Shown here one piece after another: positions 816 to 7,439 of a stretch of DNA of 64,000 nucleotides (positions within the stretch are counted from its first letter, which is position 1; every line of letters begins with the position of its first letter). Under the pieces are notes generated by a model, which was not told where the DNA came from, searched no databases, and was given only the letters and a program-made list of their open reading frames with translations. This DNA is from Terriglobia bacterium. GTDB taxonomy: Bacteria; Acidobacteriota; Terriglobia; UBA7540. The translations under genes were made by a program, and so were the position numbers. The stretch lies in contig DASTAW010000020.1 of assembly GCA_035712365.1 (NCBI GenBank), positions 62,001 through 126,000 of the forward strand, given 5' to 3'.

Positions 816-844
816 TTGACATTCAAGGCGTGCTTCGTTAGAAT
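816..844 (+). promoter_or_regulatory. Sigma-70-type promoter of the sulfite reductase operon
   Basis: TTGACA (816-821), a 17-base spacer and TAGAAT (839-844) make a near-consensus housekeeping promoter. The expected transcription start near 851 is only about 7 bases before the ATG of the cysteine-rich leader peptide at 858, so the leader would be translated from a nearly leaderless mRNA. Confidence 0.75.
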
Positions 845-857
845 AGCTTTTAGTCCT

Positions 858-926
858 ATGGGCAAGAGACTCCACAGCGGCGATTGCATGTGTTGTTGCA
901 CATCCGCGCCGGCGTGTGGTGGGTAA
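858..926 (+). CDS. Cysteine-rich leader peptide (22 aa)
   Basis: ATG at 858-860 to TAA at 924-926 encodes 22 residues, of which five are Cys (positions 10, 12, 13, 14 and 20), including three consecutive Cys codons at 891-899. It lies between a strong promoter and a terminator hairpin, directly upstream of a sulfite/nitrite reductase gene, whose pathway ends in cysteine. No convincing Shine-Dalgarno precedes the ATG, which is close to the predicted transcription start. An in-frame ATG at 888 would give a 12-residue version that keeps four of the five Cys. Family knowledge: polycysteine short ORFs act as cysteine-responsive attenuators in mycobacteria; regulation by cysteinyl-tRNA supply here is inferred from layout. 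Confidence 0.75.
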   Translation: MGKRLHSGDCMCCCTSAPACGG

Positions 927-966
927 TTTTAACCGTTATTTAGATCAGGAATAATACGAACCCACC
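918..966 (+). promoter_or_regulatory. Candidate antiterminator pairing of the cysteine attenuator
   Basis: GGTGGGT at 918-924, the last two codons of the leader plus the first base of its stop, is exactly complementary to ACCCACC at 960-966, the 5' arm of the terminator. It duplicates the terminator 3' arm (GGTGGGT, 985-991), so the two compete for the same partner. A ribosome stalled on the Cys codons at 891-899 would leave 918-924 free; one that reaches the stop would cover it. This is the logic of amino-acid attenuators such as trp or his. Confidence 0.65.
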
Positions 967-1002
967 GTCGGAACAAACACTGGCGGTGGGTTTTTGATTT
1001 TT
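959..1002 (+). terminator. Intrinsic terminator of the attenuator, just before sulfite reductase
   Basis: ACCCACCG (960-967) pairs perfectly with CGGTGGGT (984-991); an extra A-T pair (959/992) is possible. The loop is 16 bases. A T-rich tract follows (TTTTT at 991-995, then TTTTT at 998-1002). It ends one base before the GGAG ribosome-binding site (1003-1006) of the reductase ATG at 1017, so it terminates before the structural gene rather than after one. Confidence 0.8.
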
Positions 1003-1016
1003 GGAGCGGCGACACG

Positions 1017-3275
1017 ATGAAAGTTTCGAATCCATTGTGGAGGGAGCGTCTGGAGGGAAGGATGCCGCCGGCGCTCGCGCGCGAGCTTGACATTTTCGAG
1101 GCCGAAATCAGCCTGAAGAAGCTAGGCAAGCTCGAAGACCGCGTATTTGCGGAAACGCGCCTGCGCAGAGGCGCCTACGGACAGCGCTATGACAACGGCG
1201 AGCGGCATGACGGGACGAAGGTCCAGCAGATGGCTTACGCCCGGCGCGAATTGACCAAAGGGCCGAACACGCTGTGGGACGCCCCAGGGATGCAGCGCAT
1301 CAAGATTCCAGGCGGGGGCCTCGACGCCGCGCAGCTTGAAACTTTGGCTGATCTGGCCGAAGAATATTCCGACGGCATCGCACACATCACCACCCGCCAG
1401 GACGTACAACTGCACTACGTCCATATCGAGGATACGCCCTCGATCATGCGCAGGCTCGCCGCTGCCAACATCACGACGCGAGAGGCTTGTGGCAACTCCG
1501 TGCGGAACGTGACGGCCTGCCCGTACGCCGGCGTCTGCGAGGATGAAGTTTTTGACGTGACGCCATATTCCAAAGCGCTTTCAAGATTCCTTTTGGGGCA
1601 TCCGGACACCCAGCAATTCGGCCGGAAGTTCAAGCCGTCATTCAGCGGCTGCTCGCAGCACGCCTGCGCTCTCGCCAATTTGCACGACATGGGCCTGGTG
1701 GCCGCAATACGTGTGGAGAACGGGGAAGAGAAGCGCGGCTTCGCCCTGTATGTAGGAGGAGGCCTTGGGGCCGTTCCTTATCAGGCAAAGCTGTTTGATC
1801 CGTTCGTCCCTCTGGAGGAGCTGCTGCCGCTGGCGCAGGCCATCTCGAGGGTGTTTGCACGGCTTGGAGAGAAGAAGAACCGCAGCCGCGCCCGCCTGAA
1901 GTTTCTGGTCCAGGATTTGGGAATCGAAAAATTCCGCGAACTAGTTCTGGAGGAGCGCAAGATATTGGAGCCGGACCCGCGATGGACGGGTTACATCACA
2001 GAAGCTGAGCAGTATAAGGAAGATCCCCTGAAGCCCGCGGGCAAGTTGCAGCAGCAGATCGGTTCAGAGACCTTCCAACGATGGCTGAAGACCAACATCC
2101 GGCCGCAGCGGCAGAAAGGTTATGTGGTTGCGACGGTTACGCTGCCGATCGGGGATATTACCGCGCGCCAACTGAGGGCGCTGGCGGATGTTGTGCGGCA
2201 ATTCACAAAGGAAACCGTGAGGACAACGGTGGAGCAGAACATCGTCATCCGCTGGGTGAGTGAAAGCGACTTGCCTGAACTCCACCAGGCGCTCGATGCC
2301 GCCGGACTAGGATCTCCGGGCGCGGGAAGCATTGTTGACGTTGTCGCCTGCCCAGGAACCGACACGTGCAAGTTGGGCATATCCTCTTCACGGGGTCTCG
2401 CCGGCGAACTACGGAACCGCCTGATCGAAAAAAGCTATCAGTTGGATGAGGCGGTCAAGGACCTCCACATCAAGATCAGCGGCTGCTTCAACAGTTGCGG
2501 CCAGCACCACGTGGCGGACCTGGGATTCTATGGCGTCAGCCGCAAGATGTCGGGATACGCCGTGCCGCACTTCCAGGTGGTACTGGGCGGCGAATGGGCG
2601 CACAACGCAGGCTCCTATGGCTTGCCGGTGGTGGCCGTCCCGTCAAAGAATATTCCTGAAGTGGTGAGCCGCCTGACCGACCGCTACGTGGCGGGCCGGC
2701 AGAGCGGAGAGTGCTTCAAGGACTTTATCAAGCGGATCGGAAAGGCGGAGGTGAAGAAACTTCTTGAAGACCTGACGCGTCCGCCCGATGACGCGAGGGA
2801 CCGCTCGTTTTTCAGGGACTGGGGCGACCCTCGCGAGTACACGCTGGGCGATATGGGTGTGGGCGAGTGCGCCGGCGAAGTGATTTCAGCCACCGACTTC
2901 GAACTGGCTGCGGCTGAAAGGCTCCTGTTCGAGGCGCAGGTGGCCTTCGAAAATGATGAGATTGAGCGTGCAGGCAAGGCTGCCTATCAGTCCATGCTTC
3001 GCGCCGCCAGGGCGCTGGTCAAGACCGAATTGCCCGGCATTCCCGATGACCCCGATCAGATAGTTTCTGAATTCCGCGGGCGGTTCTACGACACGCAAAG
3101 GTTCTTTGACACATACGCGGGCGGCAAGTTCGCTCAGTATCTGTTTGCCGCGCACGAGAGGGCTGGGGTTCCTTACACGGCCGACTCGGTGCGCCTTCTG
3201 ATCGACGAGGCAGGGCTGTTCATCGAAGCCTCGCACAACTTCTCCAGCCGGGCAGAAGTACCGGCTGCGGTCTGA
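1017..3275 (+). CDS. Ferredoxin-type sulfite (or nitrite) reductase, siroheme/[4Fe-4S]
   Basis: This 752-residue protein has the two-fold repeated architecture of assimilatory sulfite/nitrite reductases: a ferredoxin-like half with the TTRQDVQLHYVHIED substrate-site block near residues 125-139, then siroheme/Fe-S halves. The four cluster ligands are visible as Cys445-X5-Cys451 and Cys490-X3-Cys494. The six-electron reduction of sulfite to sulfide (or nitrite to ammonia) occurs in the cytoplasm. Sequence alone does not separate the two substrates, but the cysteine-rich leader and attenuator in front argue for sulfite. About 150 residues beyond the usual end (from ~600) form an extra Ala-rich helical region, possibly HEPN-like, whose role is unknown. 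ATG at 1017 follows GGAG at 1003-1006. Confidence 0.9.
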   Translation: MKVSNPLWRERLEGRMPPALARELDIFEAEISLKKLGKLEDRVFAETRLRRGAYGQRYDNGERHDGTKVQQMAYARRELTKGPNTLWDAPGMQRIKIPGGGLDAAQLETLADLAEEYSDGIAHITTRQDVQLHYVHIEDTPSIMRRLAAANITTREACGNSVRNVTACPYAGVCEDEVFDVTPYSKALSRFLLGHPDTQQFGRKFKPSFSGCSQHACALANLHDMGLVAAIRVENGEEKRGFALYVGGGLGAVPYQAKLFDPFVPLEELLPLAQAISRVFARLGEKKNRSRARLKFLVQDLGIEKFRELVLEERKILEPDPRWTGYITEAEQYKEDPLKPAGKLQQQIGSETFQRWLKTNIRPQRQKGYVVATVTLPIGDITARQLRALADVVRQFTKETVRTTVEQNIVIRWVSESDLPELHQALDAAGLGSPGAGSIVDVVACPGTDTCKLGISSSRGLAGELRNRLIEKSYQLDEAVKDLHIKISGCFNSCGQHHVADLGFYGVSRKMSGYAVPHFQVVLGGEWAHNAGSYGLPVVAVPSKNIPEVVSRLTDRYVAGRQSGECFKDFIKRIGKAEVKKLLEDLTRPPDDARDRSFFRDWGDPREYTLGDMGVGECAGEVISATDFELAAAERLLFEAQVAFENDEIERAGKAAYQSMLRAARALVKTELPGIPDDPDQIVSEFRGRFYDTQRFFDTYAGGKFAQYLFAAHERAGVPYTADSVRLLIDEAGLFIEASHNFSSRAEVPAAV

Positions 3276-3294: not shown

Positions 3295-3876
3295 ATGGAA
3301 TTGCAGCACATCAACGTAAAGCTTCTGCTGAAAAAAGACCATGAGGAACTCGACCTCGCGCCCCTGATTCCGGTGTTTCATTCCTGGATACAGATGCAGG
3401 GTTGGGACGAATTGCTGCTGGACGTGGCCGACTACCGCCACGTTTTTGCTGGCCCCGGCGTCATCCTGATCGGACACGAGGCGAACTACAGCGTTGACAA
3501 TACCGGCAACCGCCCGGGCATTCGTTACAATCGAAAGGCCGCATTGGAAGGCAGCAATCAGGACCGCCTGAGACAGGCCACGGCCGCCGCGCTCAAAGCC
3601 TGTCGCCGTTTTGAATCGGACCCGCGGCTGAACTCAGCCTTCCTCTTCAACGGCCAGGAGATCGAGATTTCAATCAATGACCGCCTGTTGGCCCCGAACA
3701 ATCCGGAAACCCGGGAGGCCGTTCAGCCGGACCTTGCACCTCTGCTCCAGAAGTTGTTTGCGGGCGGGGGATATTCTCTCTCTTACGAAAATAGTCCGCG
3801 GAACCTGTTCTCAGTTTTAGTGACGTCCTCAGGCGCCTTCACGATCGAAGCATTGCTGCAAAATCTTTTAGATTAG
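3295..3876 (+). CDS. Uncharacterised protein encoded with the sulfite reductase
   Basis: A 193-residue soluble protein beginning 19 bases after the reductase stop on the same strand, so very likely cotranscribed and under the same attenuator. No signal peptide or membrane segment is seen. A conserved-looking central block, HEANYSVDNTGNRPGIRYNRK near residues 61-81, is rich in polar and basic residues, and the rest looks like a mixed alpha/beta fold with an acidic N-terminal half. I do not recognise a family. Position suggests an accessory role in sulfur assimilation such as reductase maturation or partner binding; this is inference from context only. Confidence 0.7.
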   Translation: MELQHINVKLLLKKDHEELDLAPLIPVFHSWIQMQGWDELLLDVADYRHVFAGPGVILIGHEANYSVDNTGNRPGIRYNRKAALEGSNQDRLRQATAAALKACRRFESDPRLNSAFLFNGQEIEISINDRLLAPNNPETREAVQPDLAPLLQKLFAGGGYSLSYENSPRNLFSVLVTSSGAFTIEALLQNLLD

Positions 3877-4010: not shown

Positions 4011-7000
4011 ATGTCCGGTTCAGTCAATTGCCTGATTCGTACCCTCTGCGGCGTGATGCTCTTGATCGTCGCGTTGTCGGCGCCTGGGTTTGCTCGCGCC
4101 TCCTGGAGCGGCGTTCTAAGCGACAGTGCTGGAAATCCTGTCGCTGGCGCGGTAGTCAGGCTGCACTCACCGAGTGGAAGGCTCGATTACTCCGCAGTCA
4201 CATCTTCGGTTGGCGCCTTCATGCTTGGCGGCATTGAGGCGGGCAATTACCAGCTTGCGGCCAGCAAGGACGGCGAGACCTGGAGGACTTCGACTCCGGT
4301 TGCCATCAAGGACGGACTCAGTCTGACCGCCGGGTTGCGCCTCTCTTCTGTGAATCAGCAACTTCAGTTGATGGCTGGGGCCGAGGGTTCCTCCCAGCGG
4401 GCCACCGGGGGTGAGAACCTCTCCAGCAAGGAAGTCTCCAGCCTGCCCCTCAACGAACGGGACTTCAGTAAATTGCTGCTGCTGGCAGCCGGCACCATGA
4501 CCGATACAAACGGAAGCGCCAACTTCACCCAGCAGTTTGCGGTGAACGGCCAGCGCGCCACCGCAACGGTTTTTGCGATGGACGGGATTGACACCACAGA
4601 CCCCGAGATGGGCGGCGCAACCTTTCCCAACTTCAATGTCGATGCGATCCAGGAAGTGCAGCAGAGTTCCGGGGTGATGCCTGCGGAGATCGGCCACGGA
4701 GCTGCCAGCTTTACCAATGTGGTCACCAAATCCGGCGCCAACCAGATCCACGGCAGCGTCTTTGAGTTTGTCCGTAATTCGGCGTTCGACGCGCGGAACT
4801 TCTTTGACCGCCAGAACGCCATGGATCCGCGCCGCATTCCTCCTTTTACCCGCAATGAGTTTGGCTTTACGACGGGAGGGCCGATGGTCATTCCCGGGGT
4901 CTATAATGGACGAAACAAGACCTTCTTTTTCGGTGAGTATCAGGGGTTCCGGCAGGTGCTGGGCACCACACAAGTCTTTGCCGTCCCAACGGCGGCGGAA
5001 CGCAATGGGATCGATACCACCGCATACGCTGGCGATACGCTGACGGTGCCCGTCAGCCCGGAAATTGTGCCGGTGCTGAACGGTTACCCGATGCCGAACG
5101 ATCCGCAGGGCGCCTATGGGGCCAGGACATACGCAGCGTCTTCTAAAGTTTTTACAGGAACGGACCAGTTTTCAATTCGCGTCGATCATCGCATTTCGGC
5201 TGAATCGTCCCTGTTCATGCGCTTCAGCTATAACCAGATCACCGGCCCGGTAACCAACCCTGATCAGACGGCCATCGACCCCAGTTTCGGCATCCAGTAT
5301 TTCGATCACCAGCGGAATGCGGGCTTGAAATATTCTCGGACCTGGTCACCTCATCTGACCTCTGTTACTTCAATTGGCTATACTCGGAGCACGCCCTTCT
5401 TTCCCGCCAGTAACCATTCCCAGCCCGCCATTACCTTCAGCGACGGCCTTTATGAATCTTACAATTCTGCTGATGGGTCCATCACGGGTTCCTTCGGAAA
5501 TCTCTTGCAGTTTAAGCATGACATGGCCGACATCCAGGGCAACCACACGTTCAAGTGGGGCATGGAGATCCGTGTAAACAGGGACGCCACAATTTGGGGC
5601 CTGAATCCCAACGGCCTGTATACTTTCGGCGGTGGGACCGCATACTCGCCCGTCGCCATTTCATCGGCAAGCGGGCAGCATGATGTGCAACCGGGAGACC
5701 CATTACCGGATACGCTGGCAGGTTTTCTGACCGCGTCGCCCTATTTGTATACTGTCAGTGCAATTTCAGACATAACTCCGGGCGGCGATCGTTTTGATGA
5801 GGCGGGCGTGCGGCGTCAGGCATACAACTTTTACTTCCAGGACAGTTGGAGAGCAACGTCGCGCCTGGCGGTTGATTATGGCCTGAGGTACGAGGCAAAT
5901 AGCCGCATCGCAGAAGTGCACAAGCGGACTTCGTTGCCTCTTATCGTAGGGCAGAACGGCTCCAGCGTGCCTTTTTGGGCCCCTGGAGCGAAACAGAACT
6001 TCGTTGTGAATCCACAACCTCCCTACACCAGAGATTTGAGTGGCTGGGGACCACGCCTATCCGTAGATTATCGTCTGAACGATCATACGACGCTGCACGC
6101 GGGTGGAGCAATCAATACGCTGCTGACGAACCTGTGGCAGGACAACTTCATGACTGGAAACATCCCATACCTGTTCACTCCTTATGCTTCCGCTGCTCCG
6201 GGTATTCCCGTGCCATTCAGCAACTCGATAGTGCACGTACAGCTCCCGCCGGTTTACACTCCTGGCGGTCAGCCCGTGTTTCCGACGGGTAACACTGCTG
6301 ACGTCCCCCCCAACACGGCAATCGATATTCAGCGGTTCCAGAATGATCTGGCTGCGCTGACGCCGGGAAATCAGATCCAGGCTCTCTCAACTTTTGGCGT
6401 CGCCAAGGATTTTCGCAATGGCTATATCGAAAGTTACACCGCCGGGCTGGACCATGACTTCGGGTCTTTCAAACTCAGCGCCAACTATGTGGCCACTGCC
6501 GGAGTGCACCTCGCGAGTATTTTTTCTCCGAATAGTTACAGCGGCGCTTCCCCGGACTTCGCACCGTTTACCCAGTTCAACTCCGCGGGCCAGGTAACGG
6601 GAGGCTTCGGGTCCGAAAGTTTGATGACCACACGGTCGCATTCCACCTATCACTCATTCCAGACCAGCCTGAGCAAGAACTCTGCCGAGTGGGGTTTGGG
6701 ATTCCAGGCCAGTTATACTTTCTCCAAGTCGCTCGATGACACGAGTTCGGCCCTGGGGAACCTTTCCGGAGGGCCTGGAGTCGTTCTTCAGACCTTGCCG
6801 CAAAACCCCTGGAATCCCGGAGCAGACAAAGGTCCCTCCTATTATGACGTGACCCAAGTCTTTGCCCTAAGCCTCATTCAGGCGCTTCCCTTCAATCGCA
6901 TCAGCTTCCTGAGGCCGTTGGGGAAATCCGTAACTGAGGGATGGCAGTTCCTGAACATTACAACTCTGATGACGGGACTGCCATTCACGGTTTACTCCGG

Positions 7001-7439
7001 CATTGAACAGACGGGGGCAGGTACGTCGGGCGCAGACCGGCCGGACCAGATTGCTCAACCCAGCTTTTCAACCAGCCGCGCCGTTCGGGAAGACTATTTT
7101 GGACTTGGCACGCGCAACGCCTCCTTCTTTACGACGCCGATCCACGTGGCGGGAGGTACTGGCCCCAACCAGGGGGTCTTCGGGACCCTTGGCCGTAATA
7201 CGTTCCGTGGACCTCAGTACCACAACCTCGACGTTGCCTTGATCAAGGACACATCTTTTGGAAGGCGGGGCGCCGGGGAGTTGGGTATTCTGCAATTCCG
7301 TGCGGAATTCTTCAATGCTCCCAATCTGGTGAATTTTGGCACCCCTTCCAATGTGCTGAGGGGCAGCGGTTTTGGTATTGTCAGCAAGACGGCCGGGACC
7401 TCTCGACAGATCCAGTTTTCGCTACGTTTGATCTACTGA
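4011..7439 (+). CDS. TonB-dependent receptor with carboxypeptidase-like regulatory domain (Oar-like)
   Basis: A 1142-residue outer-membrane protein. Residues ~1-30 are a signal peptide ending near an Ala-rich site. Residues ~30-110 form a carboxypeptidase-regulatory-like beta sandwich (GNPVAGAVVRLHSPSGR). A plug domain follows, with the PLNERDFSKLLLLAAGT and NGQRATATVFAMDGID blocks that mark the large acidobacterial Oar-like receptors. The remainder is a long beta barrel ending in the aromatic C-terminal strand QFSLRLIY. Such receptors import oligosaccharides or other bulky ligands using TonB energy; the ligand cannot be read from sequence. The gene stands alone between two intergenic gaps. 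The TonB-type gene at 41427 is broken, so its energiser must be elsewhere. Confidence 0.9.
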   Translation: MSGSVNCLIRTLCGVMLLIVALSAPGFARASWSGVLSDSAGNPVAGAVVRLHSPSGRLDYSAVTSSVGAFMLGGIEAGNYQLAASKDGETWRTSTPVAIKDGLSLTAGLRLSSVNQQLQLMAGAEGSSQRATGGENLSSKEVSSLPLNERDFSKLLLLAAGTMTDTNGSANFTQQFAVNGQRATATVFAMDGIDTTDPEMGGATFPNFNVDAIQEVQQSSGVMPAEIGHGAASFTNVVTKSGANQIHGSVFEFVRNSAFDARNFFDRQNAMDPRRIPPFTRNEFGFTTGGPMVIPGVYNGRNKTFFFGEYQGFRQVLGTTQVFAVPTAAERNGIDTTAYAGDTLTVPVSPEIVPVLNGYPMPNDPQGAYGARTYAASSKVFTGTDQFSIRVDHRISAESSLFMRFSYNQITGPVTNPDQTAIDPSFGIQYFDHQRNAGLKYSRTWSPHLTSVTSIGYTRSTPFFPASNHSQPAITFSDGLYESYNSADGSITGSFGNLLQFKHDMADIQGNHTFKWGMEIRVNRDATIWGLNPNGLYTFGGGTAYSPVAISSASGQHDVQPGDPLPDTLAGFLTASPYLYTVSAISDITPGGDRFDEAGVRRQAYNFYFQDSWRATSRLAVDYGLRYEANSRIAEVHKRTSLPLIVGQNGSSVPFWAPGAKQNFVVNPQPPYTRDLSGWGPRLSVDYRLNDHTTLHAGGAINTLLTNLWQDNFMTGNIPYLFTPYASAAPGIPVPFSNSIVHVQLPPVYTPGGQPVFPTGNTADVPPNTAIDIQRFQNDLAALTPGNQIQALSTFGVAKDFRNGYIESYTAGLDHDFGSFKLSANYVATAGVHLASIFSPNSYSGASPDFAPFTQFNSAGQVTGGFGSESLMTTRSHSTYHSFQTSLSKNSAEWGLGFQASYTFSKSLDDTSSALGNLSGGPGVVLQTLPQNPWNPGADKGPSYYDVTQVFALSLIQALPFNRISFLRPLGKSVTEGWQFLNITTLMTGLPFTVYSGIEQTGAGTSGADRPDQIAQPSFSTSRAVREDYFGLGTRNASFFTTPIHVAGGTGPNQGVFGTLGRNTFRGPQYHNLDVALIKDTSFGRRGAGELGILQFRAEFFNAPNLVNFGTPSNVLRGSGFGIVSKTAGTSRQIQFSLRLIY

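Follow-up and report, generated by a model that had tools for sequence, protein, structure and literature searches.

What is the role of the 213 bases that separate the stop of one gene (803) from the ATG of a sulfite reductase gene (1017) in a Terriglobia bacterium (UBA7540; assembly GCA_035712365.1, contig DASTAW010000020.1, positions 62,001-126,000 of the forward strand)? We use "the window" for this whole stretch of 64,000 nucleotides. A preliminary description had read the bases 816 to 1016 as a complete attenuator of the cysteine type and had guessed, rightly, that the host is acidobacterial. All the parts of such an attenuator are indeed found between the two genes, in one consecutive order on the forward strand. 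The top-scoring promoter site of the region is the sigma-70-type TTGACA-17-TAGAAT (816-844), which matches the consensus at 11 of 12 positions, with its -35 hexamer TTGACA at 816-821, a spacer of 17 nt and its -10 hexamer TAGAAT at 839-844; a promoter of the TTGACA or TTGACT type also stands upstream of most of the relatives' leaders. The leader ATG follows the -10 hexamer by 13 nt and lies about 6-7 nt from the expected transcription start (around 851-852), and no Shine-Dalgarno sequence precedes it. Judged from the spacing to the -10 hexamer, the predicted 5' untranslated region (851-857) would be very short. The leader peptide ORF, MGKRLHSGDCMCCCTSAPACGG, comprises 22 codons (858-926, with ATG at 858-860 and TAA at 924-926), among them five Cys codons (at 885, 891, 894, 897 and 915), three of which are consecutive. 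The putative regulatory codons Cys10, 12, 13 and 14 lie in TGC ATG TGT TGT TGC (885-899), a Cys run that is conserved, as is a poly-Cys ORF before the orthologous genes. The strong promoter, the ORF some 7 bases further on, its length and its cysteines had all been described correctly.

Four RNA segments can be recognized in and behind this ORF. Segment 1, CCACAGCGGCG (872-882), is weakly conserved and could form a protector hairpin with segment 2 around the Cys codons. Segment 2, GCCGGCGTGTGGTGGGT (908-924), which includes the fifth Cys codon (Cys20, 915-917), is the predicted 5' strand of an antiterminator and has its conserved core at 909-919. Segment 3, ACCCACCGTCGG (958-971), would serve both as the 3' strand of the antiterminator and as the 5' arm of a terminator whose 3' arm is segment 4, CTGGCGGTGGGTTT (980-993). 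The intrinsic terminator (958-993) has 14 pairs and runs into a U-rich tail (991-1002), directly after which comes the presumed Shine-Dalgarno sequence GGAG of the sulfite reductase gene (1003-1006), just as the hairpin, T-tract and ribosome-binding site had been laid out beforehand. The repeats on which the preliminary description built its switch are exact: GGTGGGT at 918-924 is complementary to ACCCACC at 960-966 and identical to GGTGGGT at 985-991. The stretch 908-1016 folds with a z-score of -3.9.

The gene behind the terminator (1017-3275, plus strand) encodes a sulfite/nitrite reductase family protein (NIR_SIR) of 752 aa with matches to PF01077 (6e-57) and PF03460 (2e-39). Because the top NCBIfam scores, all from NirA-family models, lie below the cut-offs of those models, the name sulfite reductase is based on the domains of the protein and on the sulfur genes that make up the context in the set described below. 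A 193-aa ORF (3295-3876, plus strand), probably co-transcribed, follows it and has no match in Pfam or NCBIfam; since an ORF of this kind stands directly downstream of this type of sulfite reductase in almost all of the related loci, in several phyla, it is a candidate partner protein. Past the operon, at 4011-7439, the window encodes a CarboxypepD_reg/TonB-type outer-membrane receptor. Attenuator-type matches are found before receptors of the same family at five other loci (L141, L147, L149, L164 and L198), four of them with Cys leaders.

Could these parts have come together by chance? Three consecutive Cys codons in a short ORF turn up in 15 of 5000 shuffles of 804-1016 that keep the dinucleotides, and when the window is read in 2552 pieces of equal size, 25 of these contain such an ORF. 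Read across genomes, conservation in relatives is a much stronger argument against chance than either the shuffles or the z-score of the fold. Among the 30 closest orthologues whose upstream DNA is readable (identity of 69% or more), 23 have a poly-Cys leader ahead of the gene, and the seven without it are L008, L010, L011, L013, L017, L019 and L032; within the same family, every gene with its start on a contig, 16 in number, has the element, while G036 is cut by a contig end. Behind nearly all of the related leaders stands a terminator, and its 5' arm is able to pair with the stretch past the Cys codons. Farther afield, leaders occur in Anaerolineales (L056 and L068) and at L060; the two Anaerolineales leaders combine a poly-Cys ORF with two successive terminators. 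Four of the leaderless orthologues (L008, L010, L011 and L017) share a motif like GATTTGTTATYCT some 11-14 nt upstream of the sulfite reductase ATG, and this looks like a different, near-leaderless promoter.

The next question is which of the pairings are retained. An alignment of 12 leaders gives a conserved 2:3 pairing of CCGGCGUGUGG (909-919) with CCACCGUCGG (961-970), with one bulged U. The antiterminator first proposed, 918-924 with 960-966, therefore exists as a pairing and has to be moved as to its conserved part: the heptamer GGTGGGT (918-924) is not conserved and extends the 2:3 helix in the nearest relatives only. Across the alignment, pairing is kept in 92.5% of the cells for the 10 pairs of the antiterminator and in 98.5% for the 11 of the terminator, and shifting the partner by 1-3 columns lowers the pairing to 28-65%. 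The check that had been set in advance, an alignment of related leaders, thus comes out with conserved Cys codons and conserved competing stems, while the covariation that it was also meant to find is, within the closest family, small for both the 2:3 and the 3:4 helix and not above that of shuffles, because the segments there are nearly invariant. Individual changes are informative all the same. At L004, segment 3 has changed and both of its partners have changed to match, so that a C:G pair becomes U:A in the 2:3 helix and a G:C pair becomes A:U in the 3:4 helix, a telling case because segment 3 belongs to both; at L001, a G:U pair becomes A:U and the helix is kept.

Given so little variation in the closest family, complementarity across lineages was compared with shuffles and with control segments. 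Across lineages the sequences diverge and the complementarity recurs; at L018, for instance, CCAGAAGA serves as segment 1 and also as segment 3, with UCUUCUGG as segment 2. Among 79 class-wide Cys leaders, which are related loci and do not amount to 79 independent tests, the 2:3 pairing beats 95% of its shuffles in 37% of cases, as against 4% for upstream control segments of equal length, and its mean energy is -15.6 kcal/mol, as against -9.4 kcal/mol in the controls. In separate shuffle tests of single loci, the terminators were picked automatically, which took a wrong hairpin at L022 and the second terminator at L068. The 1:2 pairing is predicted in the window, where it overlaps the Cys codons, and 73% of the cells are paired in relatives, with covariation not above shuffles; since the per-locus shuffle tests of this pairing are mostly not significant, segment 1 is given here as plausible only.

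We turn to the position of the ribosome and how it would bear on the choice between these helices. The nascent RNA was folded up to 972-980 with an assumed ribosome footprint of 29 nt. When the A site is placed at Cys10, 12, 13 or 14, about 9-11 pairs of the 2:3 helix are expected once segment 3 has emerged; when it is placed at Cys20 or at the stop, none are expected; and without a ribosome the 1:2 and 2:3 helices compete. These foldings agree with the earlier proposal that a stall at the Cys codons leaves 918-924, the end of segment 2, free and that completion of the leader covers it. Once segment 4 has been transcribed, the terminator is the more stable structure at equilibrium in every ribosome state, so that the switch must be a kinetic one, as is generally held for attenuators of the trp type.

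The model that follows from these pairings runs as below. RNA polymerase would start about 7 nt upstream of the leader ATG, and a ribosome would translate the leader behind it. With scarce Cys-tRNA, the ribosome would stall between Cys10 and Cys14 and mask segment 1, and segment 2 (908-924), left uncovered, could pair with segment 3 (958-971) once the latter is transcribed; with the 2:3 helix formed, no terminator would form and the sulfite reductase operon would be transcribed. With ample cysteine, the ribosome would reach the stop (924) and mask segment 2, segments 3 and 4 would form the terminator, and transcription would end near 991-1002. In a leader that is not translated, segments 1 and 2 would tend to pair and the terminator would form too. 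We therefore favor, with a probability of roughly 0.88, a classical ribosome-mediated transcription attenuator of the trp type that senses cysteine, an in silico reading that draws on the parts and their alternative pairings, on how well these are conserved and on the sulfur genes that they accompany. The translation of the leader, the stalling of the ribosome, its coupling to the polymerase and the response to cysteine are what we infer from these.

Other readings of the same bases have to be weighed against this one. The near-leaderless poly-Cys ORF resembles the mycobacterial leaders, as cited in PMC13236596, and in the full fold the Shine-Dalgarno region GGAGCGG is paired with bases past the leader; the ORF might thus govern access to the ribosome-binding site, with a hairpin that is no true terminator. 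What speaks against such translational attenuation is the strong stem with its immediate U-rich tail, a form kept across the relatives, and the place of the Shine-Dalgarno sequence, which lies downstream of the U-tract and outside the conserved helices; we regard it as improbable, though it is the best placed of the alternatives.

Terminators often stand between genes, and a peptide rich in Cys might bind metal; the hairpin might then be a constitutive terminator for upstream transcripts and the ORF might encode a small functional peptide. A constitutive terminator at this place would cut the transcript of its own promoter, however, which lies between the upstream gene and the hairpin. Against a functional peptide speak its sequence outside the Cys run, which changes along with the RNA pairing, and the Thr- and His-rich leaders that accompany the same terminator before aspartokinase and hisI genes; this combination we consider very improbable. 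Slightly less probable still is a metabolite-binding riboswitch with an incidental ORF. A structured leader with a terminator would suit it, but conservation falls on Cys codons and one alternative helix rather than on an aptamer, and neither the window nor the other members of the set have an Rfam match above the gathering scores. A known RNA family or riboswitch was also sought in Rfam at permissive as well as gathering thresholds, and was set aside when only chance-level matches or a tRNA came up.

How does the cysteine attenuator that we favor relate to systems already described? With the trp, his and leu attenuators it shares a leader rich in codons for the product of the pathway, alternative antiterminator and terminator helices, to which a putative protector hairpin may be added, and a terminator before the first gene; it differs in that the predicted signal is cysteine, in that the leader ORF starts at most about 7 nt from the transcription start with no Shine-Dalgarno sequence, and in its host, Acidobacteriota. 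Of the classical arrangement we find the leader ORF with conserved Cys codons (its translation being predicted), the terminator before the first gene and an antiterminator that shares the terminator 5' arm; in the computations, the position of the ribosome decides the fold at the sulfite reductase leader.

Mycobacterial translational leaders had been named beforehand as the precedent, and they are one, though not the sole one. A Cys-codon transcription attenuator, uORFC-8-2, has been predicted before cysS in Rhodobacterales (PMC8632094), and like the present element it has tandem Cys codons in a uORF, two stems, an intrinsic terminator and a proposed sensing of Cys-tRNA. There, the gene is that of cysteinyl-tRNA synthetase, the Cys codons are two in tandem and the hosts are Alphaproteobacteria, whereas here the genes are those of biosynthesis, transport and redox functions and the runs have 2-6 Cys codons. 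Compared by description, the present element, with its sulfite reductase, its acidobacterial host and no match in Rfam, falls outside uORFC-8-2. The actinobacterial poly-Cys leaders reported by Seliverstov et al. (2005) in Mycobacterium, P. acnes and B. longum (PMC1262725) are likewise short, (near-)leaderless ORFs with a Cys run before sulfur assimilation genes; they have no conserved terminator, in contrast to the conserved intrinsic terminator and competing helix found here. Those of M. smegmatis are described as translation attenuation (Canestrari et al., 2020, as cited in PMC13236596), and with a conserved intrinsic terminator ahead of its Shine-Dalgarno sequence the present element does not belong to that type. 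A survey of attenuators assigned a function to almost none in Acidobacteria (PMC2965389). In the open-access literature, which leaves most subscription journals outside, we found no cysteine attenuator for Acidobacteria, nor one before sulfate assimilation genes elsewhere. The kind of attenuator is thus known; an acidobacterial cysteine set of many genes with almost no 5' untranslated region was not found in the literature searched.

Is the element a single case in its host? A covariance model (R1, Infernal) was built from the 12 leaders and used to search the host genome; a pattern search with TGCTGCTGC or TGYTGYTGY...CCCRCC had proved too unspecific and was given up for it. One further site is found (L181; G000:C48:332489-332643, minus strand), which precedes the gene of sulfate adenylyltransferase (ATP sulfurylase, sat). 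Behind its promoter TTGACA-17-TACAAT comes a leader MAVSMNKPVNGAGAQRMCMCCCTSSVGGRRVAGINDL with the residues CMCCC; the terminator has an energy of -23.5 kcal/mol, and the 2:3 helix one of -24.8 kcal/mol with p = 0.002 against shuffles. The stop of the sat leader lies well past segment 2, and since a ribosome at that stop would not mask segment 2, the ribosome would not decide the fold there in the same simple way.

Going by these matches, two such elements are found in the host genome, as part of a set that runs through the class. The model has matches in 141 of 299 Terriglobia genomes. For 103 matches the leader and the next gene of each were inspected, and 80 have poly-Cys leaders, most of them before sulfur genes; the model includes the Cys codons, which makes this share partly one of construction, and has no bias towards the kind of next gene. 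Poly-Cys leaders are present in 18 of 19 matches before rhodanese-type sulfurtransferases, in all 15 before sulfite reductases of several types, in all 15 before CysD and in 15 of 16 before peroxiredoxins, as counted by simple sequence signatures that miss, relative to clustering, a few members with CysD, peroxiredoxin, TauE and aspartokinase. Single or few cases precede a TauE-type transporter, TonB-type receptors, ATP sulfurylase, siroheme synthase, SsuA-type and sulfate-binding proteins and a porin. The 16 matches before aspartokinase or the adjacent asd, and the two before hisI, have no poly-Cys leader at all; the leaders inspected there are Thr-rich (such as MLSTTAKRITSKSSMSITSTTTKKTISASGAWRNS) or His-rich (MQSHRHHGHHHHHHGTTMPADCYGLM) with the same type of terminator, from which it follows that the terminator alone is enough for detection by the model.

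These exceptions deserve a remark of their own. Before aspartokinase genes (L148, L153, L154, L159, L160, L163, L165 and L169), the terminator of the same type is accompanied by Thr/Ser-rich leaders, which by their codons are probable threonine attenuators of Terriglobia. Two hisI-hisG operons (L229 and L237, the latter with the leader just given as His-rich) have His-rich leaders and a terminator, and are probable histidine attenuators.

Two further properties recur in the set. Where a promoter is recognizable, the leader start codon often lies 6-14 nt past the -10 hexamer, and 6-8 nt in most of the rhodanese leaders, a spacing from which the transcripts probably begin at the leader start codon or a few bases before it, a trait that they would share with the poly-Cys leaders of mycobacteria. 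The Cys codons of the leaders are 280 TGT and 136 TGC, as against 34 TGT and 286 TGC in the next genes (Fisher p ~2e-58), and in sulfite reductase leaders found without the model they are 133 TGT and 34 TGC. Beyond the single locus, we lean, with a little more than even confidence, towards attenuation by Cys-tRNA as a genome-wide regulatory system of Terriglobia, in which many operons would each carry a near-leaderless poly-Cys leader and a related terminator: those of sulfate activation, sulfite reduction, siroheme, sulfate and sulfonate uptake, rhodanese, outer-membrane receptors and the 1-Cys-type peroxiredoxin. The leaders before the 1-Cys-type peroxiredoxin gene (L166, L175, L178, L179 and others) have up to six consecutive Cys codons, and a redox use of Cys-tRNA sensing is possible there.

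What would such a system mean for these bacteria? The set is large enough to be named a regulon, if its function is confirmed, and its extent among the relatives suggests that in this abundant class of soil bacteria attenuation does part of the work that falls elsewhere to a cysteine-responsive transcription factor. With Thr, His and Cys leaders all found beside one terminator family, the class makes it possible to compare, in nature, how a single RNA switch has one set of regulatory codons replaced by another. The peroxiredoxin member hints at a possible link between the charging of Cys-tRNA and oxidative stress and, if the genome-wide reading is true, a lack of charged tRNA-Cys would be a redox signal there besides a sulfur signal.
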